A stretch of DNA of 64,000 nt from Petrachloros mirabilis ULC683 (lineage in GTDB: Bacteria > Cyanobacteriota > Cyanobacteriia > Thermosynechococcales > Thermosynechococcaceae), in contig NZ_WVIC01000009.1 in NCBI RefSeq assembly GCF_009939295.1, forward strand, positions 1 through 64,000, in the 5' to 3' direction. The notes under the pieces are model-generated. The model was given only the letters and a program-made list of their open reading frames with translations, was not told where the DNA came from and did not search any database. Shown here one piece after another: positions 629 to 40,040 of this stretch. The position numbers and the translations under genes were made by a program. Positions within the stretch are counted from its first letter, which is position 1. Every line of letters starts with the position of its first letter.

Positions 629-1294
629 ATGCTTGTTGGACAACCTGAATTTGTTGACAATCCCGAAAATCGTTGCCCAGTTATCCTTCTGGTGGACACC
701 TCGGGGTCTATGGCCGGTCAGCCGATTGAAGCACTCAATAGTGGGCTTTCGGCTTTTAAGGACGCTGTTCTCAAAGATGAGCAAGCTGCCCTCAGGGTGG
801 ATGTGGCCATTGTCAGCTTTGGCCCGGTGCAGTTGGAGCAAGACTTTGTTACTGTGGATCAGTTTACGCCCCCCTCACTCCAAGCCTATGGGCTTACCCC
901 CATGGGGGAAGCCATTGAATTTGCCCTGGATTTATTGGAAACGCGCAAACAAACCTATCGCAGTAACGGCATTCAGTATTACCGCCCCTGGGTCTTTTTA
1001 ATTACGGATGGAGCGCCCAATCCAGATTCCCCTTGGCAGCAAGCCTCACAACGGTTGCAAGATGCTGAAACCCAGCGGAAGCTATCGTTCTTTGCGGTGG
1101 GGGTACAGGGGGCAGATATGAATACGTTGCGTCAAATTTCTCCGTCAGAGCGGCCACCGCTTCTGCTCAAAGGACTCGATTTTCAATCGATGTTTCTTTG
1201 GTTAAGTGACTCTATGGTGCGGGTGTCGAGCAGCACGGTGGGGGGAGATATGGTGGCTTTGCCTCCGGTGGGATGGGGACAAATTACCACCTAG
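629..1294 (+). CDS. von Willebrand factor A domain protein, TerY-like
   Basis: A 221-residue protein made almost entirely of a vWA domain. The metal-ion-dependent adhesion site is complete: D23-x-S25-x-S27 in the DTSGS motif, T90 in GLTP and D127 in ITDG. There is no signal peptide or membrane segment, so it should act in the cytosol. The architecture and the next two genes (PP2C phosphatase, kinase) match the TerY-P triad, in which a vWA protein, a phosphatase and a Ser/Thr kinase form one phospho-signalling module. The partner bound by the MIDAS is unknown. The only usable start upstream of the MIDAS is the ATG at 629; no strong ribosome-binding site precedes it. The gene begins where the intron's reverse transcriptase would be expected. 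Confidence 0.88.
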   Translation: MLVGQPEFVDNPENRCPVILLVDTSGSMAGQPIEALNSGLSAFKDAVLKDEQAALRVDVAIVSFGPVQLEQDFVTVDQFTPPSLQAYGLTPMGEAIEFALDLLETRKQTYRSNGIQYYRPWVFLITDGAPNPDSPWQQASQRLQDAETQRKLSFFAVGVQGADMNTLRQISPSERPPLLLKGLDFQSMFLWLSDSMVRVSSSTVGGDMVALPPVGWGQITT

Positions 1295-1344
1295 GTGCTA
1301 TCGGACAGTTGAGTGGGGGTGCTCATGCCAATGAGAGTAAAGCT

Positions 1345-2130
1345 ATGGTCTGGAAAGCAGTTGTAGAGTCTACCATTGGAACCCGGCATTGCCAAAACCA
1401 GGTTCCGTGCCAGGACTATGGTGCGGTTCGGGTGTTGCATCCGGCGGTGGTCGGAGCCCTATCGGATGGGGCTGGTAGTGCCCAACATGCGGAAGTGGGG
1501 GCTCAAGTGGCGGTGGAGGTGTTTATTCAAGAACTCACGGAGCAACTGCCTGAGTGGTTGTCTCTTCAAGAAGCGGATCTTGCTAGTCAGGCAGAAGCCT
1601 TTTTTGTCGAAGGGATTAAGACGGTGGTTCAATCTCTGGAAACAGAGGCGGCGCGCTTGGGCTGTTCTGTGCAAGATCTGCACTGTACTTTGTTAGGGTT
1701 TGTGAGCACCCCCTATTGGATCGCTGCTATGCAAATTGGGGATGGGTTTATTGTGGTACGCCCTGAAGCTGATGCTTCCTATGAACTGCTGTTCCAGCCA
1801 GTCAAGGGGGAGTATATTAACGAGACGGTCTTTGTGACTTCGACTGAAGCCTTGAGCGCTATGCAGGTGGGGGTGCGTGCGGGTCAATATCCTTTTATTT
1901 GCGCCGCGACGGATGGCCTAGAGAAGGTGGCGATTCGGCTTCAGGGGTGGCTGCCCCATGCGCCCTTTTTTCAGCCTTTTCAAGATTGTTTGTCGCTGTA
2001 CGATGCCCAGCAGCAACAGGACTATGTGCAATCTTTTTTGAGTTCAGAGGCGCTCAATGCTCGCACTGATGATGATAAAACGCTATTGGCTTGTCTCTAT
2101 CAACCCGAGGAGGCCCCATGCGAGTCTTGA
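1345..2130 (+). CDS. PP2C-family serine/threonine phosphatase of the TerY triad
   Basis: A 261-residue protein phosphatase 2C domain, predicted to remove phosphate from Ser/Thr residues using two metal ions. The metal-binding aspartates are visible: D24 in QDYGA, D41 in SDGAGS, D133 in GDG, D190 in TDGLE and D242-D244 near the C-terminus. The reading frame is open back to 1273, inside the vWA gene. I place the start at the ATG at 1345, because the protein from there begins directly with the conserved N-terminal strand and the extra 24 residues look non-conserved. It follows the vWA gene by 50 bases, and its last 13 bases overlap the kinase gene, so the three are likely translated together. 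It presumably reverses the action of the adjacent kinase. Confidence 0.88.
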   Translation: MVWKAVVESTIGTRHCQNQVPCQDYGAVRVLHPAVVGALSDGAGSAQHAEVGAQVAVEVFIQELTEQLPEWLSLQEADLASQAEAFFVEGIKTVVQSLETEAARLGCSVQDLHCTLLGFVSTPYWIAAMQIGDGFIVVRPEADASYELLFQPVKGEYINETVFVTSTEALSAMQVGVRAGQYPFICAATDGLEKVAIRLQGWLPHAPFFQPFQDCLSLYDAQQQQDYVQSFLSSEALNARTDDDKTLLACLYQPEEAPCES

Positions 2131-4487
2131 CCCGTCGTTTTGCAGGCTGCTCTCTGACCCTGACCCAACAAATTGCGAACAGCGGTGAAGGTACAGTCTG
2201 GGAGACGAGCGAGGCTGGCTATCTGGCCAAGATTTACCATCAACCTACTCCCGATCGCATCCAAAAGTTGATGGTGATGGTTGCCCATCCTCCTGCTGAT
2301 TCGCGATCGCACCTATCTCCGGTGACTTTTGCCTGGCCTCAGGATTTGCTGGATGATGTCCGGGGGCAATGCGTGGGCTTTTTGATGCCCAAAATTGCTG
2401 AAAGTGTCCGGCTTTCGGTCATTTATAATCCTCGGTTGCGCAACCGCCAAGCTCCGCAGTTCAACTGGCAGTATCTACACACCACGGCGTTGAATGTGGC
2501 TTTGGCGATTGAGGAGCTGCACCAGAGCGGCTATGTATTGGGCGACATCAAGCCCCAGAATTTGTTGGTGAACAACGAGGCGCTCGTCTCAATTATTGAT
2601 ACTGACTCGTTTCAAGTTCGCAATCCCCAGAATGGTGCGCTACACCGTTGTTTGGTGGGGTCGGAGGGTTTTACGCCCGTTGAACTCCTGGGCCAAGATC
2701 TGGCTATGGTGGATCAAAGCGAAGTTCACGATCGCTTCCGCTTGGGCGTCATTATTTATCTACTCTTGTTTGGAGATCAACCCTTCAAGGGCAAATGGTT
2801 GGGATCGGGGGAGTCGCCCCAGCCCACCACCTTGATTCAAAAGGGCTATTGGCCCTTTGCCCCCCAAAGTTTGATTCGACCGGGCCCCACGACGATTCCC
2901 TTGGCGATTGTGCATCCCCAGGTGCAGGCATGTTTTCAGGCTTGTTTTACCCAGGGACATACCCAGCCCAATGCCCGACCTTCAGCGGCTCAGTGGGTGC
3001 AGGCACTGCGAGTGGCGATCGCAGCTTTGCGTTCTTGTCCTTTTGAGCGTAATCATCACTTCAGTACCCATCAAAGCCACTGCTATTGGTGCGATCGCAA
3101 ACGCCAACTGGGTCTTGATATCTTCAGTCCTAAAGCAGCCCCCACCAAGGGTGCCGTCTCTCGACAGCACCTAGCCCGCTCAAGGCTGCCACGCCCTTCT
3201 ACTCGGGGGCTCAAGTCAGCCCCGTTGCCCCAGCCCCAACTGTTGACCCAGGTGCTCAGAATAGCGCCCAATTCCATTCAAAGCCCCATAAAGTCTTCAT
3301 GGCGTTTCTCTCCCCCGTCAAAAACGGTGATTGGTGGCACCCTATGCACCCTGAGTTTGGTGGGGCTAGGACTGCTGCTGTTGCCGGAGTTGGAGAGCCG
3401 CAACCAGAGCCGTAGTCGTCAAACTCTAGGGCGTAACCTTACCGCCTTGGTGACCGCTTTTCAAGAGCATCTTCCCTGGACGGAGCGGCTGATACCAACC
3501 GTCGTAGAGGAGCCTGCTTCTGCAGTTGTGGTTGCAACCTCAGCTTCAGAGGCTTTACCAGAGCATAGCCATTGGGATGCCATAACCAGTTTAGCCCTTA
3601 GCCCGGATAACCATACCCTGGTCAGTGGCAGTCGAGATCTCACCCTGAAGGTTTGGGACTTTACCACTGGAGAGCTGCTGGCAACACTCTTAGATCACTA
3701 TGAACCCATCGTTTCTGTAGACATTAGTAAAGACGGGCAAACCCTGGTAAGCGTGAGCGCCAGCGGTAAAGTTTTTATTTGGGATCTGCCGACCCGTAAA
3801 CTGCTCCGCACCTTGGTGAGTCAGTCTCTATGGGTGACAGATGGAGCCGTGCGAGCCACGGCTATAAATGCTCAGGGCACCTTGCTGGCGAGTAGCATTT
3901 CTGGGGGTGCCCTCCTGTTGCAGAGTCTGCAAACCAATAAGCAAATCCGAATTCCATCCCAGTCCATTGCCTCAGAGCAAGCCATTGCCATGACCCCTGC
4001 TCCCCATAAGCTGGTTAGCAGCTCTAGTACGGGGAATCTGAACCTCTGGGATGCTCAAACAGGGGATTTGTTGCTGAGTTTTCCGGGCACCACCCAGAAT
4101 TTACCCCTCGAATTTATTCGCACCCTGGCGTTGAGTCCCAATGGCAATGTCTTGGCCAGTGGCAGTTGGAGTGGCTCCATTCGGTTATGGAATCCGCAAA
4201 CTGGCCAGGTGGTGGGAACTCTCTCTGGACACGAGGATTCTATTTCTGCGCTCCAAGTTAGTCCAGATAATCAGTTGTTGATCAGTGCGGGGCATTCCCA
4301 AATCAAAATATGGCATTTAGCCACTCGCAGGCTGCTCAGAACTATCTTGACCGACCAGATTGAGATCAAAACCCTGACGTTGAGTTCAGATGGTCGCTAT
4401 GTGATTGGTGGGGGTGAAAACCCCATCATCAAGGTGTGGGATCTCTCAACTGGAGACTTGGTGCGTACCTTTCCGCCCCATCCTTAA
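2118..4487 (+). CDS. Ser/Thr protein kinase with zinc cluster, membrane segment and WD40 repeats
   Basis: A 789-residue fusion. Residues 15-300 are a protein kinase domain: K38 in AKIY, catalytic loop GDIKPQN at 142-148 (D143), and a DTD at 161-163 in place of DFG. A short Cys/His cluster follows (C307, H321, C322, C325), as in kinases of TerY-P triads. Residues 404-422 are a hydrophobic segment that could cross the membrane. From about 485 to the end there are about six WD40 repeats ending in motifs such as LKVWD, IRLWN and IKVWD, which could form an extracytosolic or substrate-binding propeller. The start at 2118 is fixed by GAGGAGG eight bases upstream; an in-frame ATG at 2091 is less likely. 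It is the last gene of the vWA-PP2C-kinase operon. The substrate is unknown. Confidence 0.9.
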   Translation: MRVLTRRFAGCSLTLTQQIANSGEGTVWETSEAGYLAKIYHQPTPDRIQKLMVMVAHPPADSRSHLSPVTFAWPQDLLDDVRGQCVGFLMPKIAESVRLSVIYNPRLRNRQAPQFNWQYLHTTALNVALAIEELHQSGYVLGDIKPQNLLVNNEALVSIIDTDSFQVRNPQNGALHRCLVGSEGFTPVELLGQDLAMVDQSEVHDRFRLGVIIYLLLFGDQPFKGKWLGSGESPQPTTLIQKGYWPFAPQSLIRPGPTTIPLAIVHPQVQACFQACFTQGHTQPNARPSAAQWVQALRVAIAALRSCPFERNHHFSTHQSHCYWCDRKRQLGLDIFSPKAAPTKGAVSRQHLARSRLPRPSTRGLKSAPLPQPQLLTQVLRIAPNSIQSPIKSSWRFSPPSKTVIGGTLCTLSLVGLGLLLLPELESRNQSRSRQTLGRNLTALVTAFQEHLPWTERLIPTVVEEPASAVVVATSASEALPEHSHWDAITSLALSPDNHTLVSGSRDLTLKVWDFTTGELLATLLDHYEPIVSVDISKDGQTLVSVSASGKVFIWDLPTRKLLRTLVSQSLWVTDGAVRATAINAQGTLLASSISGGALLLQSLQTNKQIRIPSQSIASEQAIAMTPAPHKLVSSSSTGNLNLWDAQTGDLLLSFPGTTQNLPLEFIRTLALSPNGNVLASGSWSGSIRLWNPQTGQVVGTLSGHEDSISALQVSPDNQLLISAGHSQIKIWHLATRRLLRTILTDQIEIKTLTLSSDGRYVIGGGENPIIKVWDLSTGDLVRTFPPHP

Positions 4488-4504
4488 ATAGCTTTGCAAC
4501 TGGT

Positions 4505-4614
4505 GTTCCAATCCTCGCCCGACCCGGAGGCCGGACGCTACTTAAGTTCATTGCTAACAATGGTCTGACTACAATTAGTTCCAATCCTCGCCCGACCCGG
4601 AGGCCGGACGCTAC
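4505..4614 (-). CRISPR. Minimal CRISPR array: two 37-bp repeats, one 36-bp spacer
   Basis: Two identical 37-bp units at 4505-4541 and 4578-4614 flank one 36-bp spacer (4542-4577). Read on the minus strand, each repeat begins GTAGCGTCCGG and ends GGATTGGAAC, with a GC-rich palindromic core. The ATTG(G)AAC 3' end is typical of CRISPR repeats and sets transcription leftward, the same direction as cas2, which ends about 180 bases away. That 180-base gap (4615-4794) would be the leader. With one spacer the array is either nearly dead or heavily contracted. It lies 17 bases beyond the stop of the kinase-WD40 gene. Confidence 0.9.
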
Positions 4615-4794
4615 GGTAATAGTATCAAACCCTTGCACCAAAAGCACTTCGAGCTTAGGTAACGCAAACCTCTCAGAGTTTGGGGAAAATTAAACTGCGA
4701 TCGCAGCCCCAATCCACTCCAAAGCCTTGATCTGGCTTGATCGCGATCCCCCCTACCCTTTGAGCCGCACTCCAGGTTCGCGGAATTATATTGG

Positions 4795-5085
4795 CTAGAG
4801 AATGAGGGGTTCATCAAAATCTGTATAGTGATCAACACCAAACTGTTCAAAATATTGTTCCCGAGGAGAAGGAAGGCGATAAAACCGGAGATTATCGGTT
4901 TTAGTATCGATGATGCCAACCAGTTGAGCACGTAAGGTTTCATACTGAGCCTGACTTACCCGACACTCAAATACCGAAAACTGCACCCGTTGACCAAAAT
5001 TTTTACAGACCGTAGCCACCTTACGCAGCCGCCGCTTCCCTGCTTTAGTCTCTGTATTCACATCGTAGGCCACCAACACATCCAT
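4795..5085 (-). CDS. cas2: CRISPR-associated endonuclease Cas2
   Basis: A 96-residue Cas2 of type I-C length. The first strand VLVAYDV carries the conserved aspartate, and the RVQFSVFEC segment is the usual second half of the ferredoxin-like fold. Cas2 dimers bridge two Cas1 dimers in the spacer-integration complex. It is the last gene before the array and follows cas1 by 16 bases, the standard I-C order. It appears complete. Confidence 0.95.
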   Translation of the reverse strand: MDVLVAYDVNTETKAGKRRLRKVATVCKNFGQRVQFSVFECRVSQAQYETLRAQLVGIIDTKTDNLRFYRLPSPREQYFEQFGVDHYTDFDEPLIL

Positions 5086-5101
5086 GAACTTGCGTTTTCC
5101 T

Positions 5102-6133
5102 TTAACGCTGAATAAACGGCTGATAGGTCGGCACCTCTCCCCTTAAATGACGAGCCAACAACCTTGCCTGAATATGCCCCATCAAACCAAACGGTACCTT
5201 TGTTCCGATTACCGTATGAGAAATTTCTTCTTGTTTGCGCTTTTGATAGGCCGTCAGCAAAATTTTGCGAGCATCCTCTGTCAAAAAGATGGCTCCACCA
5301 GGACGTTCTATAAAATCGTCGGGCTTGAGCTGATTGCGGTTGATCAGAGTTAAAATAAGCCGACCAGCCAAGGGCGATCGCAGTTCCTCCATCAGATCCA
5401 GCGCTAGAGCAGGTCGTCCTGGCCTAACGGCGTGGAGAAACCCTACTTGGGGATCCAGCCCGACACCTTCACAAGCAGCAATGCATTCCCCCGCTAGCAA
5501 AGTGTAAACAAAAGACAACAAAGCATTGATGGGATCGCGGGGTGGGCGGCGCGATCGCTCCGTGAGGGCAAAAGCCTCTCGATTGAGACGCAGCATTGCT
5601 GTGAATGCAGAAAAATATGCCTTAGCCGCATAGCCTTCAATCCCCCGCAGTTTGTCTAGATCTGCTGCGCGCTCTGCATGGTGAATTGCTTCAGCATGAA
5701 CTTTGCCAGCTTCTTTTAGCGTCGATTGGTCGGTTAGGGCTTTTGCCTCACGGGCAGCGCGCATGAGCACACTTCTGGCATTTTGCAGCTTCCCAGCTAC
5801 CACATAGCGAGCAATTGACAGCACTCGATGGGGATCACGAACTGCATCGTGCTGAGCCTGCCGCAGCAATACATTTCCAGTGGTTTCCCCAGACAGCCGC
5901 GCTCTAAACCGACCATGCTCAGACAACCAGACCAAACTACGTCCATCTTGGGCACAACGATGAACCAAAAAGGGACTGATCAGCACATTGCCAAACGCAA
6001 CAATGCCGCCCAGATGATGCAGCGGGATTTGGAAAGTGGTTTTTCGCTCCAGTTCTAGCTTCAAGGTGTCGTGATCAAGGCGAAGATAGCTACCCTGGGT
6101 TTGGACATAGAGGGTATTGAGAATCTGCTTCAC
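5102..6133 (-). CDS. cas1: CRISPR-associated integrase Cas1, type I-C
   Basis: A 343-residue Cas1, the integrase that inserts new spacers at the leader-repeat junction. The metal-binding residues are present: E166 in RGIEGYAAK, H234 in FLHAVRPG and D246/E249 in LDLMEE. The N-terminal beta domain and the helical catalytic domain are both full length. Its start overlaps the cas4 stop by four bases, which suggests translational coupling. Nothing in the sequence suggests inactivation, in contrast to the broken interference genes of the same locus. Confidence 0.95.
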   Translation of the reverse strand: MKQILNTLYVQTQGSYLRLDHDTLKLELERKTTFQIPLHHLGGIVAFGNVLISPFLVHRCAQDGRSLVWLSEHGRFRARLSGETTGNVLLRQAQHDAVRDPHRVLSIARYVVAGKLQNARSVLMRAAREAKALTDQSTLKEAGKVHAEAIHHAERAADLDKLRGIEGYAAKAYFSAFTAMLRLNREAFALTERSRRPPRDPINALLSFVYTLLAGECIAACEGVGLDPQVGFLHAVRPGRPALALDLMEELRSPLAGRLILTLINRNQLKPDDFIERPGGAIFLTEDARKILLTAYQKRKQEEISHTVIGTKVPFGLMGHIQARLLARHLRGEVPTYQPFIQR

Positions 6134-6753
6134 GGCTCATCCTGCACCACAAAAGGATTATTGAGTTGGGCTGCTCGATCAAAACCACTCAGAGCCTGGG
6201 GCAAACAGGCATCAATGAGCGAACAGTCTTGACAACGGGCGTCATTCACAGGTGGCGGTAAGGTTTGGCCTGTGAGTAAACGTCTAACGGCTTGTATCGT
6301 CTCTAGCACCTGATCTCGCAGGGCTTGTGTCAACTCCACCTCTCGTCGCCGCTTGGAAGCATTGTGAAAGATCGCACCTTTGGGAACAGGGCAATTGAGC
6401 ATTTCTTCTAAGCACAGGGCTTGAGCACAGAGTTGAATATCATCAGCCAGACGGCGCTTGCGGGCACCGGATTTATATTCCACAGGATATGGGGTACCGT
6501 CGCTGCTAAATTCCACCACGTCTGCAATACCGGTAAGTCCGAGTTGATGAGACCACAGAGGCATGGCTCGCTCTACCCGGATTCCTTCAATTAGCTCGTA
6601 TTCTGGGACATTCACTTTTTCATGTACCCGCTGTCCTCGCAAAGTATAGAGGTTTTCATCCCAGACTTGCTCAATATGAATTAAGGCACATTGCCGAGGA
6701 CAAAATGCATGGTGCTGTAACGCACTGAGCATAATATAATCTTCAGTAATCAC
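6130..6753 (-). CDS. cas4: CRISPR-associated exonuclease Cas4
   Basis: A 207-residue Cas4 (Dna2/RecB-like nuclease with an iron-sulfur cluster), which processes prespacers and helps select PAM-proximal ends. Visible features are the N-terminal cysteine in FCPRQC, the nuclease motif VEYKSG, and the C-terminal cysteine group in ARCQDCSLIDAC. It precedes and overlaps cas1 by four bases, as in normal I-C loci. What lies upstream is abnormal: it should be cas7, but four unrelated small genes come between. Confidence 0.93.
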   Translation of the reverse strand: MITEDYIMLSALQHHAFCPRQCALIHIEQVWDENLYTLRGQRVHEKVNVPEYELIEGIRVERAMPLWSHQLGLTGIADVVEFSSDGTPYPVEYKSGARKRRLADDIQLCAQALCLEEMLNCPVPKGAIFHNASKRRREVELTQALRDQVLETIQAVRRLLTGQTLPPPVNDARCQDCSLIDACLPQALSGFDRAAQLNNPFVVQDEP

Positions 6754-6760
6754 TGTAATA

Positions 6761-6970
6761 CTACAGCCCTAGGTGAGCTATAACTTCCTCAGAAGAATGG
6801 GTAAGAGTTTCGCCACGGGCTTCTCGAATTTTTGTAAGTGTCTCCTTAAATTCAGGCTTAAGAAGCCGACCCTCATCAGGATCGATCAACATTTCTTGGA
6901 GAACCTCTTCCATAGTTTTATGAATTAAGGACTTGAATTCGTCGATTGTTAAATCTTTCACTTTTTCCAT
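6761..6970 (-). CDS. Small antitoxin-like protein inside the cas operon
   Basis: A 69-residue acidic, helical protein (starting MEKVKDLTIDEF, with an EEVLQEMLIDPDEG segment). Proteins of this kind are common in cyanobacteria, usually as the upstream partner of a RelE- or PIN-type toxin. No such toxin lies next to this copy; the downstream gene is cas4, eight bases away. A GTG three codons upstream (6979) is an alternative start, but the ATG at 6970 fits the family's usual N-terminus. It may be an orphan antitoxin or may simply ride in the operon. The antitoxin role is inferred from family context. Confidence 0.6.
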   Translation of the reverse strand: MEKVKDLTIDEFKSLIHKTMEEVLQEMLIDPDEGRLLKPEFKETLTKIREARGETLTHSSEEVIAHLGL

Positions 6971-6993
6971 GCTCTGCACCCCCTAGAACTGAA

Positions 6994-7437
6994 TCAGCAA
7001 TGCTCATCTGGAAAATAATCTTGGTTGAGGCTGTTATTGAGTGAGTAGGGACAAACTGACGGGAAAGTATCAAGATGGAGTCCTGTTTCATCTGCTGCTA
7101 GATTACGAGCTGCAACATAGCATTGGGGCATCACTGCCTCAAAATAAGGCTTTAAACTAGGACTTTCTACCAGTAAATCTTGAATCCTGAGCCGTTGCTC
7201 GCGGACAGTAGCTCGCCAACTGTTACTCCGCTGCTTGGGCTGATACTGCCACTTAAGGAGGTGCATCAGCAGGATTTCCAGGCGACTTTTCAATGCCCGT
7301 TTTTCAGACCGCCCCAAGCTTTCGATCTCCTCAGCAATATTGTTAATATCAAGTTCATGCCACTTGCCGGCCCGCAAGGCAACAGCCATTTTTTGAGTCC
7401 ATTGGTAGAAATCTTGATCGTAGGGTGTAGTTATCAT
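6994..7437 (-). CDS. DUF29 family protein
   Basis: A 147-residue DUF29 protein: the N-terminal YDQDFYQWTQ segment, the central NIAEEIESLGRSEKRAL motif and the basic KWQYQP segment are diagnostic. DUF29 proteins are abundant in cyanobacteria and often lie with toxin-antitoxin genes; their biochemical role is not established. Its start overlaps the preceding DUF5615 gene by four bases, so it is part of the same transcript. A second, diverged DUF29 gene lies at 31129-31602. Confidence 0.85.
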   Translation of the reverse strand: MITTPYDQDFYQWTQKMAVALRAGKWHELDINNIAEEIESLGRSEKRALKSRLEILLMHLLKWQYQPKQRSNSWRATVREQRLRIQDLLVESPSLKPYFEAVMPQCYVAARNLAADETGLHLDTFPSVCPYSLNNSLNQDYFPDEHC

Positions 7438-7814
7438 GATGAGTCTTTGTTGCGAATAGGAAGAATTCGTAGCCGAGATCGGCCCTCATCCACTGTGACC
7501 AAAGCTCCAGCTTCCAGAGCTGATTCAGACTGATACAAAGCCAGAATAACGAGATCTCCTACGGCACCTGGCAAAACATCTTTAGTTCTAAGTTGAATCA
7601 CGCTTGGGCTATTGACCTGGGTCACCGATAAAAGGGTGCCGAAGTCCATGTCATGGGTGAATACAACATAATCATTTTCAGCAGCCCAGGCCATGATCTC
7701 TTGATCGGAGGCGTTCATAGCACCAATTATTGACCAGTGAACGGCATCAACTCCTTTTGAGGCTAAGAAACTGACCCAGATTGGCGACAAATTCATGTCA
7801 ATCAACAGTTTCAT
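7434..7814 (-). CDS. DUF5615 family PIN-like toxin
   Basis: A 126-residue PIN-like protein of the DUF5615 (Mut7-C-related) type. The conserved acidic positions are visible: D5/N7 in LLIDMNLSP, D38 in SDQEIMAWA and D55-D57 in FTHDMDFG. Such proteins are predicted ribonuclease toxins paired with DUF433 antitoxins. The DUF433 gene lies immediately upstream and overlaps by four bases, which makes this a canonical module. Its position inside a CRISPR operon is unusual. Confidence 0.85.
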   Translation of the reverse strand: MKLLIDMNLSPIWVSFLASKGVDAVHWSIIGAMNASDQEIMAWAAENDYVVFTHDMDFGTLLSVTQVNSPSVIQLRTKDVLPGAVGDLVILALYQSESALEAGALVTVDEGRSRLRILPIRNKDSS

Positions 7815-8041
7815 GCAGTTTGCAATGGCACTTCAATTTCTTCAACGCGCCAAGCTGCATAGGCCAACGCTGCGTAGATATCATCTTGCTCAAGATAAGG
7901 ATAGGCGGCAAGAATCTCTTTCATACTGTGCCCTGAAGCCAACAGACCCAGGATTGTGCCGACTGTGACTCTTATGCCCCGAATGCAAGGCTTCCCACCC
8001 ATTATCTCTGGATTAAACGTAATTCGGTTCAAATTTTCCAT
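7811..8041 (-). CDS. DUF433 family antitoxin
   Basis: A 76-residue DUF433 protein, with the typical ITFNPEIMGGKPCIRG segment, the TVGTILGLLASG helix-turn-helix-like region and the YPYLEQDDIYAAL motif. DUF433 proteins are winged-helix antitoxins for PIN-like DUF5615 toxins and are expected to repress their own operon. It begins 13 bases after the cas7 stop, so the module is embedded in the cas transcript, with no visible gap for an independent promoter. Confidence 0.87.
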   Translation of the reverse strand: MENLNRITFNPEIMGGKPCIRGIRVTVGTILGLLASGHSMKEILAAYPYLEQDDIYAALAYAAWRVEEIEVPLQTA

Positions 8042-8054
8042 AGATTAGCTCACT

Positions 8055-8990
8055 TTAGATCAGGCTGGACAAACTAATATCAGTGGGCCGAGCCGCTTCA
8101 TTTACGGTAACGTCATAGTCGCTAAAGGTGCGGGGGCTGGTGATGGTGGCTTTTTTCTGGACTTGGATGCGCTCAAAGAGTTTATGGGCTGGGGCTTTGC
8201 CAATTTTATTATCGTGAGTGAAGATATAGAGTCCTCGGGGAGCCATCAACCCTCGACTGGCAGATCGATCCAAGTCCCACATGTTGATCAGGGCATCCCA
8301 AAAGAGGTTTAAATCGGCTTCTGTTACACCCGTTTGGGCTGCCAAATAAGGAGAATAGAACCCGTGAGCTTGGTAAAGGCCATAGGGAATAAAGGTCTTG
8401 CGGCCAATGGTTTGGAGCTTTTCTCGATCTTTTTCGTCAGTGACGGCGACTCGCGTGACGGCTAGATCTTGGGGCAAGACGGGGTCAAAAGACCGGGAAA
8501 AGGTAAGCTGCATGGGGCCACGCACTTGACCAGCATTCAAGCCGGTACTCATGACTGCGCCAAACATGCGCACGTCGTAGAAGTTTTGACACATCCAGGC
8601 TTGAGCTTTTTCTGCATTTTTACGGTTCTTGTCAGGTTTACCAGCCTTTTCATCTAGAAGTTCGGCTTTGACAGGATCGGTTGCTGGCTTCCCAGTGGGA
8701 ATATTCTGCTCTACGTAGGCGCGGCGAATTTGATTGTTGAGGACGCCGTGATGCTCCACAAAGATTTTAAGGCGCGCCGCTTCTGCTTCAGAAGCTTCGT
8801 ATTCGGCGTAGGTGGCTACATAGTTCCGGACTTTGCGTTTGAGGGCGACATCGGTGACTAAGCCCTGAAGAGTTTCAGGATCGGTGCGGGGCATGTTGCC
8901 GCCATCGGGATCGCCGTTGGGGTTGCCGTCAGTGACATCGAAGAGCAACACAAAGTCGTGGCGGTAGGCAGGATTGAGATAGGCAGTCAT
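8055..8990 (-). CDS. cas7: CRISPR backbone protein Cas7, type I-C (Csd2)
   Basis: A 311-residue Cas7 of the Csd2/I-C type, which coats crRNA as the repeating backbone of Cascade. The N-terminal LLFDVTDGNPNGDPD segment, the RMFGAVMSTG motif and the C-terminal region are full length, and I see no frameshift. It follows the truncated cas8c by four bases. Without Cas5 (which in I-C also cuts the pre-crRNA), full-length Cas8c and Cas3, it cannot support I-C interference from this locus. It may be a relic or may work with components encoded elsewhere. Confidence 0.93.
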   Translation of the reverse strand: MTAYLNPAYRHDFVLLFDVTDGNPNGDPDGGNMPRTDPETLQGLVTDVALKRKVRNYVATYAEYEASEAEAARLKIFVEHHGVLNNQIRRAYVEQNIPTGKPATDPVKAELLDEKAGKPDKNRKNAEKAQAWMCQNFYDVRMFGAVMSTGLNAGQVRGPMQLTFSRSFDPVLPQDLAVTRVAVTDEKDREKLQTIGRKTFIPYGLYQAHGFYSPYLAAQTGVTEADLNLFWDALINMWDLDRSASRGLMAPRGLYIFTHDNKIGKAPAHKLFERIQVQKKATITSPRTFSDYDVTVNEAARPTDISLSSLI

Positions 8991-8994
8991 AGCG

Positions 8995-9318
8995 TTACTC
9001 CTGAGTGGATTTGGCTTGTTTGGTGGCTTTGGCCTCGGCTCGGTTGTGGGCGCGCTGGTGGTAGTAGCCCAGGGCGAACAGGCTTTGCTGGTGCATGGAG
9101 AGGGTGGGGGGAAACTCGCAGAGTTCGGCCATGATGCTCTCTAAACGTTCTTCTAGGGCGTAGCAGGTGCCAGGGGTGTTTTTGCGGAGCTTGGATAGGT
9201 GCGATCGCACCCCCCGCAGCAGAGGCGAAAAAGCAGTGGCTGGGGTACTGGAAGCGGCACCGTAGTAGCGATCGGTGAGGGAGGCATTCAGATTGCCAAT
9301 GGCAGCTCGTTGAATCAT
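8995..9318 (-). pseudogene. cas8c: C-terminal fragment of cas8c (csd1)
   Basis: This 107-residue reading frame matches only the C-terminal end of Cas8c, the large PAM-recognising subunit: NLNASLTDRYYGAAS, a SPLLRG helix, and LSMHQQSLFALGYYHQR. Full Cas8c proteins are around 550-600 residues, so roughly four fifths are missing. An in-frame TGA lies directly before the first ATG (9318), so nothing upstream is coding in this frame. The deletion junction must lie between 9319 and the pth gene, whose 3' end is at 9379. cas5 and cas3, which normally precede cas8c, are also gone. Confidence 0.85.
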
Positions 9319-25367: not shown

Positions 25368-25940
<573 letters not shown>

Positions 25941-35716: not shown

Positions 35717-36031
35717 ATGACGCAGCACCTCAGCGACTACCAGAATCGATCTATCCGCCTTAGCAAAGAACGACTCGCCCACATTCTGGAACATCCAGAA
35801 ATGGTTGAGTTAGCATCTCAGATTGCCAAGGTTCTTCAAGAACCACAAGTGGTGCGACAATCCAGCAGCGATAGGAGAGTTCAGCTTTACTATTGCTACT
35901 ACGAACAATCGATGGTGGGGGCAAAATGGTTGTGTGTCGTTGTGAAACATTTACCCGATGATGCCCTCATCATTACCGCCTATCTCACAGACAAAATTAA
36001 ACAAGGAGTAGACCTATGGCAAAATCAGTAA
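35717..36031 (+). CDS. Small protein, possible nuclease toxin paired with DUF2283
   Basis: A 104-residue protein (NRSIRLSKERLAHILEHPEM, QVVRQSSSDRRVQLYYCYYEQ, VVVKHLPDDALIITAYLTDK). The pattern of a His-containing N-terminal helix and a beta-rich C-terminus resembles small RelE/barnase-like nucleases of the DUF4258 type. AAGGAGGT sits directly before the ATG. Its stop overlaps the next gene by 16 bases, typical of a toxin-antitoxin pair. Toxin identity is inferred from context; the fold is not certain. Confidence 0.65.
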   Translation: MTQHLSDYQNRSIRLSKERLAHILEHPEMVELASQIAKVLQEPQVVRQSSSDRRVQLYYCYYEQSMVGAKWLCVVVKHLPDDALIITAYLTDKIKQGVDLWQNQ

Positions 36032-36264
36032 CTGTTTGGTTTGACCCCGAAGCTGACTTTCTTGAGGTCAAATTTTCGGATGCTCCTGGTTATATGCGTG
36101 AAACTAACAACGATGCCATTATGGAGCGGGTGGATATAGAAGGAAATGGGATCGGTTTTTCTATTCTCAACGTTAGCCAACTGGCGAAAGGACACCCTTT
36201 GGTTGCTCAATTGACAGGTGCCTCTGGCTTCGAGCAGAGTGCTGTGGGAGAATGCCAACTGTGA
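36016..36264 (+). CDS. DUF2283 family protein (antitoxin-like)
   Basis: An 82-residue DUF2283 protein: VTVWFDPEADFLEVKFSD, NNDAIMERVDIEGNGIGFSILN. Members are often encoded directly after DUF4258 genes and are taken as antitoxins. The gene overlaps its upstream partner and ends 27 bases before the orphan phycobiliprotein gene. It may drive or merely precede that gene's expression. Confidence 0.82.
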   Translation: MAKSVTVWFDPEADFLEVKFSDAPGYMRETNNDAIMERVDIEGNGIGFSILNVSQLAKGHPLVAQLTGASGFEQSAVGECQL

Positions 36265-36291
36265 CAGACCCAAGGCGCGCATCAATTTACT

Positions 36292-36879
36292 ATGACCCAG
36301 CTCCCCCTCAGTGAAAAAGCACGGACGCTCATTCCCAAAGCCCGCATTGTCAGCTTTGTTACCTGGCAAGATACCCACCCGCCAGAACTGCTGCAACGGT
36401 TTCAGGCTGCTGACGACGAGGGTCGCTATCTCAGCGATGCGGACGGTGAAGCCATACAAGCCCTGGCTGCGGAGACCGGGACTTGGCTGCCGGTGGTGAA
36501 ACAACTCCGCGATCGCGCCCCCGATATTGTGGCCAAGGCCAGAGCCCAGGTGCTAGCTCAGTTCCCCAACATTACCGAACCTGGGGGCGGGCTTTATCCC
36601 CCTGAACGGGCTGATGCCTGCTGGCGAGACTTCTGGCACTTTCTGCGCTGCATCACCTACGGCATTGCCGGACAGCACACCGACTACACCAGCCCAGCAG
36701 GGCTGCAAGCCATGGAAGAACTCTACCAGGAGCTTCAAGTGCCCCTAGAGGCCATGGTTATGGGCTTAGAGGCGATCAAAACAGCTAGCCTTGAGGAAAT
36801 GGAGGCTCAGTCTCAATCTGCCCTGTCTCCCTACTTTGACCATCTGATTGCCCAATTGCGGCAGTTTCGGGCTCCATGA
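36292..36879 (+). CDS. Orphan phycobiliprotein-like protein
   Basis: A 195-residue protein with the phycobiliprotein globin-like fold but unlike any standard alpha or beta subunit. The bilin site is kept: C110-W-R112-D113 (ADACWRDFWHFLRCITYG) aligns with C-L-R-D around C80 of CpeB, keeping the chromophore Cys and the Arg/Asp that hold the bilin. A second cysteine is C120. The C-terminal MEELYQELQVPLEAMVMGLEAIK matches the equivalent helices of true subunits, while the N-terminal third (1-95) is divergent. It overlaps the HEAT-repeat gene downstream by four bases and lies 1.1 kb before cpeC. It could be a chromophore-binding accessory, sensor or degradation factor; I do not know a described function. 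Confidence 0.75.
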   Translation: MTQLPLSEKARTLIPKARIVSFVTWQDTHPPELLQRFQAADDEGRYLSDADGEAIQALAAETGTWLPVVKQLRDRAPDIVAKARAQVLAQFPNITEPGGGLYPPERADACWRDFWHFLRCITYGIAGQHTDYTSPAGLQAMEELYQELQVPLEAMVMGLEAIKTASLEEMEAQSQSALSPYFDHLIAQLRQFRAP

Positions 36880-37550
36880 CAGATTCCTCACTTCAGGATT
36901 GGGAAGCCTGGCTGCACGGCGGGTCTCTAGATCAATGCAAGGCGGCTCTGGATGCCCTGGCCAAGTACCCGGCGCATGAGGCGGTGCCGATCTTGCAGCG
37001 ATTGCTCACCCACCCCGATGTGGTGCGGCGTCGCTTTGCGGTCATGGGCTTGGGCAACCACCCCACCGCCGCATCCTGGCAGATTCTGACCACCTTGATC
37101 ACCCAAGAGCAAGACGACAATATTTTGGCCGAGGCGGCCAACACCCTCTGTGACTTTGGCGAAGCCGCTGTGCCCCTGTTGGTGCAGTTATTTGAGCGAT
37201 GTCCCCACTGGTTGACTCGTCAAACCATTCTGGCGATCTTGATGGATACCCAGCCCAACAATATTCTGCTCTCCGTCGTTCGCATGGGGCTGTTAGACAA
37301 AACCCTTACGGTGCGAGAAACGGCCATTCTGGCCCTGGGCAGCCTTCTGGATGGGGTCTGTCATGGGGAGGCGATGGTGCTGCTGACGGAGCTATCGGGC
37401 TCGTCAGTTTGGCGCGATCGCTGGCAAGCTGCGATCGCCCTTAGGCGTTCCCAAACCCCAGAGGCCAGAAAGCGTCTGGCGGCTTTGCGCCAGGACGATC
37501 ATCCCTGGGTGGTCGCCGCAGCCCTGGAAGCCACCTTGCAATCGAGTTGA
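36876..37550 (+). CDS. HEAT-repeat, bilin lyase-like protein paired with the orphan phycobiliprotein
   Basis: A 224-residue HEAT-repeat protein (ALDALAKYPAHEAVPIL, RRFAVMGLGNHPTA, ILALGSLLDG, RWQAAIALRRSQTPEARKRLA). It belongs to the broad group that includes CpcE/F lyases, CpeZ and NblB. The start overlaps the preceding stop (ATGA), so the two proteins are probably made together and may bind each other. The most economical idea is a dedicated lyase or chaperone for the orphan phycobiliprotein; an NblB-like pigment-removing role is the alternative. Confidence 0.75.
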   Translation: MTDSSLQDWEAWLHGGSLDQCKAALDALAKYPAHEAVPILQRLLTHPDVVRRRFAVMGLGNHPTAASWQILTTLITQEQDDNILAEAANTLCDFGEAAVPLLVQLFERCPHWLTRQTILAILMDTQPNNILLSVVRMGLLDKTLTVRETAILALGSLLDGVCHGEAMVLLTELSGSSVWRDRWQAAIALRRSQTPEARKRLAALRQDDHPWVVAAALEATLQSS

Positions 37551-37708
37551 TTGGGAAATCTCGCTCTTCAAACTAAAACATTAAGTTTTACAAATCTTTA
37601 TGAGAGCGCACCCAAGGTATATCAATATGGATCGTAACCTAGCGCAAGAAATGTTCTCACCATTGACTGCGCCCAAACGCGTAAATTCTCAGTGAGAGTT
37701 TGCGGTTT

Positions 37709-37870
37709 GCTCAGAGGCAGTTTGAGAAGTTGCTTAGACCTTGCACTTGCCCCCCTAGCCCCCCAATTCTGGGGGGAAATGAGCAGAGTTTTTGGCTTTC
37801 TCCCCCCAATTTTGGGGGGTTGGGGGGGCTAATGCAGGGATGAATGAGACTTTTCAGACGGCCTCTCAGC
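37709..37870. repeat. Family B-like core with different termini
   Basis: The core (GCCCCCCTAGCCCCCCAATT and CCCCCCAATTTTGGGGGG) is that of the 174-bp elements, but the ends are GCTCAGAGGCAGTTTGAGAAGT and the inverse of GCTGAGAGGCCGTCTGAAAA, not GTGTACAC. It lies in the 431-base gap between the HEAT gene and cpeC, upstream of the cpeC promoter. No clear target duplication was found. Confidence 0.7.
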
Positions 37871-37922
37871 TAACAAGGTCACCTCAAACTGCCCGTGCAT
37901 TGGGGGGTGTGACCCAAGTTAG

Positions 37923-37938
37923 TTTCCCCTAGGGGAAA
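37923..37938. promoter_or_regulatory. 16-bp perfect palindrome upstream of cpeC
   Basis: TTTCCCCTAGGGGAAA, 44 bases before the cpeC ATG. A second inverted pair, GTTAA...TTAAC, surrounds 37949-37965. Position suits an operator or a leader hairpin. The ribosome-binding site is AGGGAGA just before the start. Confidence 0.45.
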
Positions 37939-37981
37939 AATCAGCTTAGTTAATCCGTCGTTAACCAGGGAGAAACTGTTA

Positions 37982-38842
37982 ATGGCTTTTGGACCAGCTT
38001 CACGCTTAGGTGTTAGCCTATTTGACGAAACCCCGCCTACTGAGTGGATTCCCGGTCAGTCTGCTTCAGATGCTGAAACGGTGATTCGTGCAGTCTATCG
38101 GCAAGTTCTCGGTAACGCATACGTCATGGAAAGTGAGCGTCTCAGCGTTCCGGAATCTCAATTCAAACGGGGTGAACTTAGTGTCCGGGAGTTTGTGCGA
38201 CAAGTCGCCAAATCTGATTTGTACCGCTCTCGCTTTTTTACGAGCTGTGCTCGCTACCGAGCCATTGAACTGAATTTCAGGCACCTCTTGGGTCGTCCCC
38301 CCTTGGATCTAGAGGAGATGCGCACCCACAGCACCATTCTCGATACCGAAGGGTTTGAGGCCGAAATCGACTCTTACCTAGACAGTGATGAGTATCAAAA
38401 CACCTTTGGCGAAAACTTTGTCCCCTACGTGCGGGGCTACAAAACTGAAGCCTGCCAGAGCATGGTGCAGTTTACTCATACCTTTGAGTTGGTGCGTGGT
38501 GCTTCGAGCAGCAGCCTCAAGGGCAACATTGCCGGCAAGCGCCCCCGTCTCAATTCTTTGGTGATTCAGAAAGTTCCGACGCCAGTGGTTTCGCCCGCCA
38601 GTGACGGTGCGACTTTCCAACATCCGCCAGGAACAGCGAGAACTCGCTTTGGTTCTAGCATCGGTGATGATGGAAAAATGTATCGCATTGAAGTTACAGG
38701 ATACCGATCAAAGGTGGTCAACCCGGTGTCTAAGTTCCGTCGTAGCAACCAGGTGTATTACGTCCCCTTTGAGAAGCTTTCTCAAGAGTATCAGCGGATT
38801 CACCGGCAGGGTGGGGTAATTGCCAGTATCACACCGGTCTAG
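37982..38842 (+). CDS. cpeC: Phycoerythrin-associated rod linker CpeC
   Basis: A 286-residue rod linker. Residues about 25-155 are the phycobilisome linker domain (VIRAVYRQVLGNAYVMESERL, SVREFVRQVAKSDLYRSRFF, ELNFRHLLGRPP). The C-terminal 55 residues form a CpcD-type domain (MYRIEVTGYRS... EYQRIHRQGGVI). It joins phycoerythrin hexamers in the rods. First gene of cpeCD; both termini are conserved. Confidence 0.93.
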   Translation: MAFGPASRLGVSLFDETPPTEWIPGQSASDAETVIRAVYRQVLGNAYVMESERLSVPESQFKRGELSVREFVRQVAKSDLYRSRFFTSCARYRAIELNFRHLLGRPPLDLEEMRTHSTILDTEGFEAEIDSYLDSDEYQNTFGENFVPYVRGYKTEACQSMVQFTHTFELVRGASSSSLKGNIAGKRPRLNSLVIQKVPTPVVSPASDGATFQHPPGTARTRFGSSIGDDGKMYRIEVTGYRSKVVNPVSKFRRSNQVYYVPFEKLSQEYQRIHRQGGVIASITPV

Positions 38843-38844
38843 GG

Positions 38845-38925
38845 TTTTGTCAGGACAATTTTGACGGGTCGTAGACCTTCAAAATTTAACCCTACTCAAC
38901 TTTTCGGTACTCAGTTACCTGTCAA
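38845..38925. repeat. Intergenic repeat family C between cpeC and cpeD
   Basis: The segment TTTTGTCAGGACAATTTTGA, then ACCTTCAAAATTTAACCC and AACTTTTCGGTACTCAG closely matches 60020-60095 upstream of cofG, and part of it matches 49208-49252. It follows the cpeC stop by a few bases. No terminal inverted repeats were found. Confidence 0.65.
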
Positions 38926-39002
38926 ATTAAATTTGGCAGATCAGCAGATCACTAGAAAGCTTTCACGATTGGCGTCGATGGGGTGATGGTTTGTGGCATT
39001 CA

Positions 39003-39025
39003 GGGCAGGCTATGGCTGCCTGCCC
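39003..39025 (+). promoter_or_regulatory. Hairpin in the cpeC-cpeD intergenic region
   Basis: GGGCAGGC and GCCTGCCC form an 8-bp GC stem with a 7-base loop, 114 bases before cpeD, without a T-run. It may stabilise the upstream cpeC mRNA or attenuate transcription. Confidence 0.5.
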
Positions 39026-39138
39026 AAGACAAGTCATGCCGGTGGTGTGGCTGCCCCGTCACTCTATCCCGTTGATCGCTTAACCCTCAATCAAAAGCAA
39101 ACCTGTTTAGACGTGACTTTAGGAGACTGAATTTCACA

Positions 39139-39891
39139 ATGGCTGTATCTACCCAGTTTGAATTGTGGCCCACCAGCGGCCTGGATGAAGTCCAGACCAT
39201 TATTCGTGCGGTTTATAGGCAGGTGTTGGGCAATCCCCATGTCATGGAAAGTGAGCGCCTCGTGGCCGCTGAGTCCCAACTGTGCGATCGCGCCATTTCC
39301 GTGCGGGAATTTGTCCGGGCTGTAGCCAAATCCGCTCTATATCGCACCCGCTACTTTGAGTCCTGCGCCCCCTACCGCTTTGTCGAAGTCAACTTCAAGC
39401 ATCTCCTCGGTCGCGCCCCCCAAGATCAACGAGAAGTATCTGAGCATATCATTCGCTGCGTTGCCGAGGGCTACGAAGCAGAAATTGACTCCTACATCGA
39501 TAGCGATGAGTACCAGGCCGCCTTTGGTGAAAATGTAGTGCCCTACTATCGAGGGCAAGACAGTGCTGCCAACTCGAAGCAAGTCGGCTATATTCACAGC
39601 TTTGCCCTTGACCGGGGTCCAGCGCAGATCGACAGTGCCACCAAGGCGTCGCAACTCGTCTATGCAGTCGCCACCAATACGGTTCCCGCCGTCAAACCCT
39701 CTACCAGCCGGGGGGGGGCTTCTTCCGTGGCCGAAAAAACCTTCAAGATTTTGGTGTCTGGTTCCAAATTCGATAGTCCTCGGCGCACCAGCAATACCGA
39801 GTACATTGTGTCTGGCAGCAAAATGACCCCTCAAATTCAGCGCATTCATCGTGCTGGGGGCAAAATCGTCAAGATTACAGAAGTCATCTAG
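39139..39891 (+). CDS. cpeD: Phycoerythrin-associated rod linker CpeD
   Basis: A 250-residue rod linker similar to CpeC: linker domain at about 17-150 (IIRAVYRQVLGNPHVMESERL, SVREFVRAVAKSALYRTRYF, EVNFKHLLGRAP) and a C-terminal CpcD-type domain (FKILVSGSKFDS... IQRIHRAGGKI). AGGAGA precedes the ATG. It is followed by two terminators before cpeS. There is no cpeE gene here, unlike the cpeCDE cluster of Fremyella. Confidence 0.93.
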   Translation: MAVSTQFELWPTSGLDEVQTIIRAVYRQVLGNPHVMESERLVAAESQLCDRAISVREFVRAVAKSALYRTRYFESCAPYRFVEVNFKHLLGRAPQDQREVSEHIIRCVAEGYEAEIDSYIDSDEYQAAFGENVVPYYRGQDSAANSKQVGYIHSFALDRGPAQIDSATKASQLVYAVATNTVPAVKPSTSRGGASSVAEKTFKILVSGSKFDSPRRTSNTEYIVSGSKMTPQIQRIHRAGGKIVKITEVI

Positions 39892-39898
39892 GCGGATG

Positions 39899-39940
39899 GG
39901 TATGGGCACAGCCTCCTCAGGATCTGCCCATACCTTTTTA
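39899..39940 (+). terminator. Rho-independent terminator after cpeD
   Basis: GGTATGGGCA pairs with TGCCCATACC (10 bp), followed directly by TTTTTAA. It ends the cpeCD transcript. Confidence 0.88.
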
Positions 39941-40040
39941 ACTTAGATGGCATTTGCAAGCTTCCATTTCGGTTCCTTCATCAATTTTTCCTGGGGATGC
40001 TTGAGCTTAAGGCTTATAGGGTTTTCAGTCCGTCTCACAA

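Follow-up and report, generated by a model that had tools for sequence, protein, structure and literature searches.

The closest characterized relatives of the gene set described here are YegL, PphC (YegK) and YegI of Escherichia coli, a von Willebrand factor type A (vWA) protein, a PP2C phosphatase and a kinase. According to PMC13232886, YegI is a membrane-bound Ser/Thr kinase; it autophosphorylates on serine, and PphC dephosphorylates it. Autophosphorylation of YegI is likewise reported in PMC12189002. A broader class is the TerY-P triad (Anantharaman 2012, as cited in PMC11090510), which the CoCoNuT paper defines by a TerY-like vWA protein, a PP2C phosphatase and a Ser/Thr kinase that has a zinc element at its C-terminus, and of which Gao 2020 gives an antiphage variant. 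Here, we describe a triad of this kind at positions 629–4487 of the first 64,000 nucleotides of contig NZ_WVIC01000009.1 from the cyanobacterium Petrachloros mirabilis ULC683, the whole stretch that was analyzed and that we call the window. As judged from sequence homology, the triad is very probably a member of the YegL–PphC–YegI family, with a kinase that carries a WD40 propeller as its tail.

The combination of an N-terminal kinase with a C-terminal WD40 propeller is also found in PkwA of Thermomonospora curvata and in the cyanobacterial cbSTKII kinases. A 2007 survey lists kinases with WD40(6) or WD40(7) for Trichodesmium, Anabaena, Nostoc and others; the terms "vWA" and "PP2C" are absent from its main text, in which no triad is described (PMC2176072). 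That cyanobacterial kinases are associated with WD40 repeats was pointed out in 2017 (PMC5587647). Thus, cyanobacterial WD40-kinases and TerY-P triads with phage protection are already known, as is the side-by-side annotation of the three genes, which is present in two Trichormus plasmid records. PpkA–PppA of type VI secretion is a kinase and phosphatase set, and so is the KKP prophage module; both have partners and a context unlike those of the window triad. In the open-licence literature we recognized no account of a cyanobacterial vWA–PP2C–WD40-kinase module. Relative to that literature, the link to YegL–PphC–YegI, the exchange of tails on a constant core and the external propeller considered below are apparently new.

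Kinship of the triad with YegL, PphC and YegI

The three genes lie on the forward strand at 629..1294, 1345..2130 and 2118..4487, separated by a 50-base gap between the vWA and PP2C genes and joined by a 13-base overlap between the PP2C and kinase genes, exactly as the initial annotation had placed them. The first encodes a TerY/YegL-type vWA protein of 221 residues (Pfam VWA, 9.8e-11), the second a PphC-type phosphatase of 261 residues (PP2C_2, 2.8e-46), and the third a YegI-type Ser/Thr kinase of 789 residues with a zinc cluster, one predicted membrane helix and the propeller. The vWA protein is 53% identical to YegL of E. coli K-12 over 213 residues (2e-79) and the phosphatase 34% identical to PphC (1e-43). 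The kinase and its zinc cluster share 34% identity with YegI over 320 residues (9e-49), in an alignment that begins at the glycine loop and takes in the zinc cluster. The order vWA, PP2C, kinase is the same in E. coli, with yegJ interposed in K-12. Furthermore, the zinc cluster of the window kinase is placed directly behind the kinase fold and ahead of the membrane segment, and YegI likewise has the cluster with one or more hydrophobic segments behind it. Since all three proteins and the zinc cluster are homologous to the E. coli set, we file the triad as a YegL–PphC–YegI-type module.

The name of TerY-P type triad, which the locus had been given initially, is apt for the composition, as the window set comprises a TerY-like vWA protein, a PP2C and a kinase with a C-terminal zinc element. 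It is less apt for the kinship, which is closest with YegL, PphC and YegI and not with the antiphage set. The window kinase also differs by its WD40 tail from the TerY-P kinases, for which a zinc ribbon alone or an OB-fold is described. Among solved structures, phmmer found no relatives of the vWA and PP2C proteins at E-values up to 0.01.

The functional residues that had been read as intact are so, each being conserved in at least 95% of the aligned rows. These are D23, S25, S27, T90 and D127 of the metal ion-dependent adhesion site in 67 vWA proteins, the metal ligands D41, D133, D190, D243 and D244 in 65 PP2C rows, and K38, D143, K145, N148, D161 and D163 in 78 kinase rows.

The kinase domain occupies residues 1–303 (2118..3026) and matches Pkinase at 4e-11 when residues 1–340 are scanned alone. 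Its catalytic loop reads GD143IKPQN148, with GD where HRD is expected and no HR ahead of the aspartate, and the DFG site reads D161TDSFQ, with DTD instead of DFG. The zinc cluster (3036..3092) has the pattern C307-x5-H313-x8-C322-x2-C325, which is invariant across 47 aligned kinases and is matched in 76 of 77 relatives. In an AlphaFold2 model of residues 1–340 alone, computed with 47 sequences (mean predicted local distance difference test score, pLDDT, 94.4), the zinc element forms a short hairpin and a helix within the fold. Foldseek searches with the kinase core retrieved, among the matches listed, generic kinases only, with TM-scores of at most 0.62 by query length.

The full-length model, computed with 30 aligned sequences, has a mean pLDDT of 79.5 and a predicted template modeling score (pTM) of 0.49. 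From the N-terminus it contains the kinase fold, a disordered linker, a helix at residues 402–425, a second helix at residues 430–449, and seven four-stranded blades at residues 489–785 (3582..4472). Because the pTM is low, the model does not predict how kinase and propeller are placed relative to each other. The first helix (3321..3392) coincides with a hydropathy peak at residues 403–423 and is the predicted membrane segment; its existence and that of the zinc cluster agree with the initial annotation. The number of WD40 repeats, previously put at roughly six, has to be corrected to the seven blades of the model, which together comprise 28 strands. The kinase protein matches Pfam WD40 at 8.9e-39, and in a Foldseek search, seven-bladed WD40 propellers rank first. 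The best match is 7bie, with a TM-score of 0.91 by target length, followed by 5yzv, by its description the WD40 domain of a protein from Thermomonospora, which we take to be PkwA.

Exchange of the kinase tail and position of the propeller

A scan of a one-genome-per-species collection gave 209 relatives, of which the best 80 were kept, representing 79 loci; judging from the record titles, all of these 80 are from cyanobacteria. Upstream linkage could be judged in the 68 loci with more than 3 kb ahead of the kinase, the remaining 11 being too short. Both the vWA and the PP2C gene are present in 59 of them, the vWA gene alone in one, and neither in eight. At E-values up to 1e-30, the kinase core is found in 51 of 194 genomes sampled across the phylum. 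The kinase-WD40 form is present in 14 of the 28 genomes of the window's family; all three gene families occur at 13 of these 14 loci, and at the last (L039) the contig breaks off. Among the 14, the frame of the PP2C gene is broken in L044 and that of the vWA gene in L048. PP2C or kinase frames in pieces, where either decay or assembly error is possible, are seen at L044/L068 (Acaryochloridaceae cyanobacterium SU_2_1), L114 and L129.

A second copy of the module is present in the window genome itself, on contig C44 at about 2501–4769 (L050). It consists of a YegL-like vWA gene and a YegI-like kinase gene with no PP2C gene between them; the kinase has no WD40 repeats and, by eye, shows C-terminal hydrophobic stretches. 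A similarly reduced form, without PP2C and WD40, is found in Lyngbya confervoides (L117).

The tails of the relatives are diverse. A home-made repeat profile was used to count WD40 repeats in 77 kinases, two of the 79 loci having been dropped with a broken kinase frame shorter than 400 residues. At least four repeats are found in 33 kinases, one to three in six and none in 38. Of the 33 WD40-bearing kinases, 13 have a hydrophobic segment ahead of the propeller, 12 have one behind it and eight have none. An alignment of 38 kinases (36 of the 38 kinases without WD40 repeats, the window genome's own C44 copy, and L119, which actually contains one repeat) was searched with Pfam and yielded TPR_1 in 10 and PDZ_6 in three, nearly all in kinases without WD40.

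The WD40 label requires 16 changes on a tree built from 81 kinase cores, compared with 26.7 for shuffled labels; the number of changes depends on the threshold of the repeat profile. At least nine of the 16 changes are forced by well-supported branches, and the number is 10 when six truncated or frameshifted rows are dropped and any repeat is scored as WD40. With about ten or more changes on the kinase tree, the WD40 tail has therefore been repeatedly gained or lost on one core. These comparisons make it rather likely that the module consists of a constant core of kinase, phosphatase and vWA protein with an exchangeable sensor tail, which may be WD40, TPR, PDZ or membrane-only.

Fourteen kinases, that of the window and 13 relatives, have the helix ahead of their propeller. 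In 13 of these 14 (the exception being L057), the 30 residues ahead of the helix carry a more positive net charge than the 30 residues after it, and the propeller part is free of cysteines in 13 of the 14. Of the 12 kinases with the helix behind the propeller, 10 have cysteines in the stretch from residue 340 to the helix. On account of the charge bias across the helix and the almost cysteine-free propeller, the propeller of the window type may lie outside the cytoplasm, in the periplasm, an assignment that we regard as evenly balanced. Such an external use of a normally cytoplasmic WD40 fold, if true, was not met in the literature searched.

The propeller might alternatively serve in the cytoplasm as a platform on which substrates or partners dock, and not as a sensor, with the helix acting only as a peripheral anchor. 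WD40 propellers usually are protein-binding platforms, and in the 12 and eight of the 33 WD40 relatives in which the segment lies behind the propeller or is absent, the propeller is presumably cytoplasmic. In the window type, however, the helix is situated between kinase and propeller, with the kinase side the more positive one and hardly a cysteine in the propeller, and we consider a docking role rather unlikely there. More tentatively than the exchange of tails itself, we envisage a widespread cyanobacterial signalling chassis of vWA protein, PP2C and zinc-capped kinase that swaps its input between a propeller outside or inside the membrane, TPR, PDZ and membrane helices alone; in the window version, the kinase would then possibly act as a receptor, with its WD40 propeller on the outside.

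A putative phosphorylation module with a sensor tail

The triad is probably a cyanobacterial reversible phosphorylation module of the YegL–PphC–YegI type that uses the tail of its kinase as a sensor. In such a module, the kinase would be held at the membrane, autophosphorylate and phosphorylate its targets, and the PP2C phosphatase would reset it. The vWA protein may be a scaffold that depends on metal, the zinc element would belong to the kinase core, and the tail would be the input domain of the kinase. In the window version, a propeller outside the cytoplasm could detect a periplasmic signal, from either a protein or the wall; PASTA kinases, which use an external domain, offer an analogy.

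Several points weigh against this assignment. E. coli YegI is without the catalytic-loop lysine and asparagine, both of which the window kinase keeps; as the cyanobacterial relatives also keep them, YegI appears to be the divergent enzyme. The C-terminus of YegI gives a weak helix-hairpin-helix match (9e-4, below the cut-off) in place of the propeller, and the tail is therefore not common to the two kinases. With no helix-hairpin-helix in the window kinase, we treat the tail as variable and not as a defining part of the family. No condition that promotes the expression of yegI or pphC is defined in PMC13232886, and an E. coli yegI deletion is reported to be without a growth phenotype in a glucose control shift. 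The support for the topology is indirect, the 14 kinases considered being kin and L057 breaking the charge rule, and the profile that sets the WD40 labels was seeded from six repeats only. The cyanobacterial relatives, with their canonical catalytic-loop residues and natural tail swaps around one constant core, provide a direct route to the signal-reading part.

Neighbourhoods of the module and the CRISPR locus

Constant neighbours were taken from gene clusters common to the loci and named by profile searches on representatives. In the Acaryochloris lineage, seven loci have relA/spoT upstream (with a broken frame in L087), and six of the seven have an AMIN/Amidase_3 amidase downstream. The Nostoc lineage has ATP synthase genes beside 14 loci, with the operon upstream in all 10 whose layout was examined, and genes for the phycobilisome core linker and allophycocyanin follow at part of these loci. 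Ppx/GppA and UbiA genes are found at six loci, downstream in all five examined for layout.

The profile-confirmed relA/spoT and amidase genes raise the possibility of a housekeeping regulator of growth, the stringent response or the cell envelope that tunes relA/spoT or the AMIN-domain murein amidase, and an external propeller would fit a wall signal. This seems improbable to us: the constant neighbours differ by lineage (ATP synthase, phycobilisome, ppx) and may reflect chromosome stability only, and neither relA nor the best amidase match of the window genome shares a contig with the triad. A join of the relA contig to the triad contig was considered and is not shown by the data, relA lying 1.6 kb from its contig end and blastn of the ends sharing 16 bases.

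The window begins at a contig end, and the true upstream neighbour of the triad is not visible. The initial annotation had proposed a group II intron remnant on one side of the triad, with the CRISPR array on the other. This is not borne out: Rfam has no match at gathering level within the window and none at E-values up to 1 in bases 1–700. Bases 50–120 are a dispersed repeat of about 70 bases, with seven more copies in the genome at 76–92% identity. No reverse-transcriptase open reading frame is evident near the copies when these are read by eye, as opposed to a library scan. By eye, the copies mostly lie beside ordinary genes.

Downstream, the triad does adjoin a CRISPR array, at 4505–4614, although this consists of two repeats only (4505–4541 and 4578–4614). 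It belongs to a type I-C CRISPR-Cas locus at 4505–9318, which further contains cas2-cas1-cas4, cas7 and a Cas8c remnant. The remnant corresponds to model positions 489–584 of 588 (TIGR01863), the last fifth, and the locus looks decayed. Between cas4 and cas7 lie two further genes, one for a DUF29 and one for a DUF5615 (PIN-like) protein.

Searches with the window's cas1, cas2, cas4 and cas7 (tblastn at 1e-3) gave no match in 99 related stretches (L034–L132), a set that includes some places twice as well as L053, a stretch without the kinase. CRISPR-like arrays were flagged in two of the 99 (L093, L104). Among the Cas1 matches listed, Cas1 lies within 10 kb of the kinase at one of 69 places in 194 genomes; that place is the window itself, at 3.1 kb, and the next nearest Cas1 is 32 kb away. 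Cas1 is present in five of the 14 genomes that carry orthologous kinase-WD40 loci. Again among the matches listed, it is present in at least 41 of 51 kinase-bearing genomes versus at least 79 of 194 overall, a comparison confounded by lineage and genome size. This co-occurrence may follow these two factors and is not read as functional. With at least five Cas1 matches in the window genome, a chance Cas1 neighbour is unremarkable. As the relatives are found in housekeeping loci and are cas-free in the 99 stretches, the CRISPR neighbourhood of the window triad looks like a local accident.

The PADLOC library, which contains only described defence systems, has no model that the window vWA and PP2C proteins match at E-values up to 1, the TerY model PDLC02224 included; the E. 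coli YegL control itself reaches no better than 0.032 with that model. The kinase matches only models of other kinases, among them PD-T4-6 and mad6, both weakly, and MkoA. The PD-T4-6 and MkoA matches fall on the kinase domain, and E. coli YegI, used as a control, gives them too.

Antiphage TerY-P defence, in which the kinase would sense infection, phosphorylate targets and halt phage growth, shares the identical three-gene composition, is reported to protect from T7-like phages and, in the case of P. aeruginosa, from Autographiviridae, and could claim the cas genes that begin 0.3 kb downstream and the PD-T4-6 and mad6 matches, but it is very unlikely here, given vWA and PP2C proteins without a PADLOC match, PD-T4-6 and MkoA matches that YegI also gives, and relatives in housekeeping loci with no cas neighbours. 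The sensor–effector phospho-signalling module of the initial annotation is still plausible, although the defence role drawn from its neighbours is not supported by these loci, the cas search or PADLOC. What we found is largely the pattern that the same annotation had set against a defence role, with widespread orthologues in a housekeeping context and no enrichment of defence genes, as far as flanks scanned for cas and not for every defence family can tell. A TerY-P-like gene set that adjoins a CRISPR locus thus need not mean a defence system.

Farther along the window, at 25386–25940 and at about 36000–40000, phycobiliprotein-like, phycobilisome linker-like and HEAT-repeat lyase-like genes were recognized by eye.

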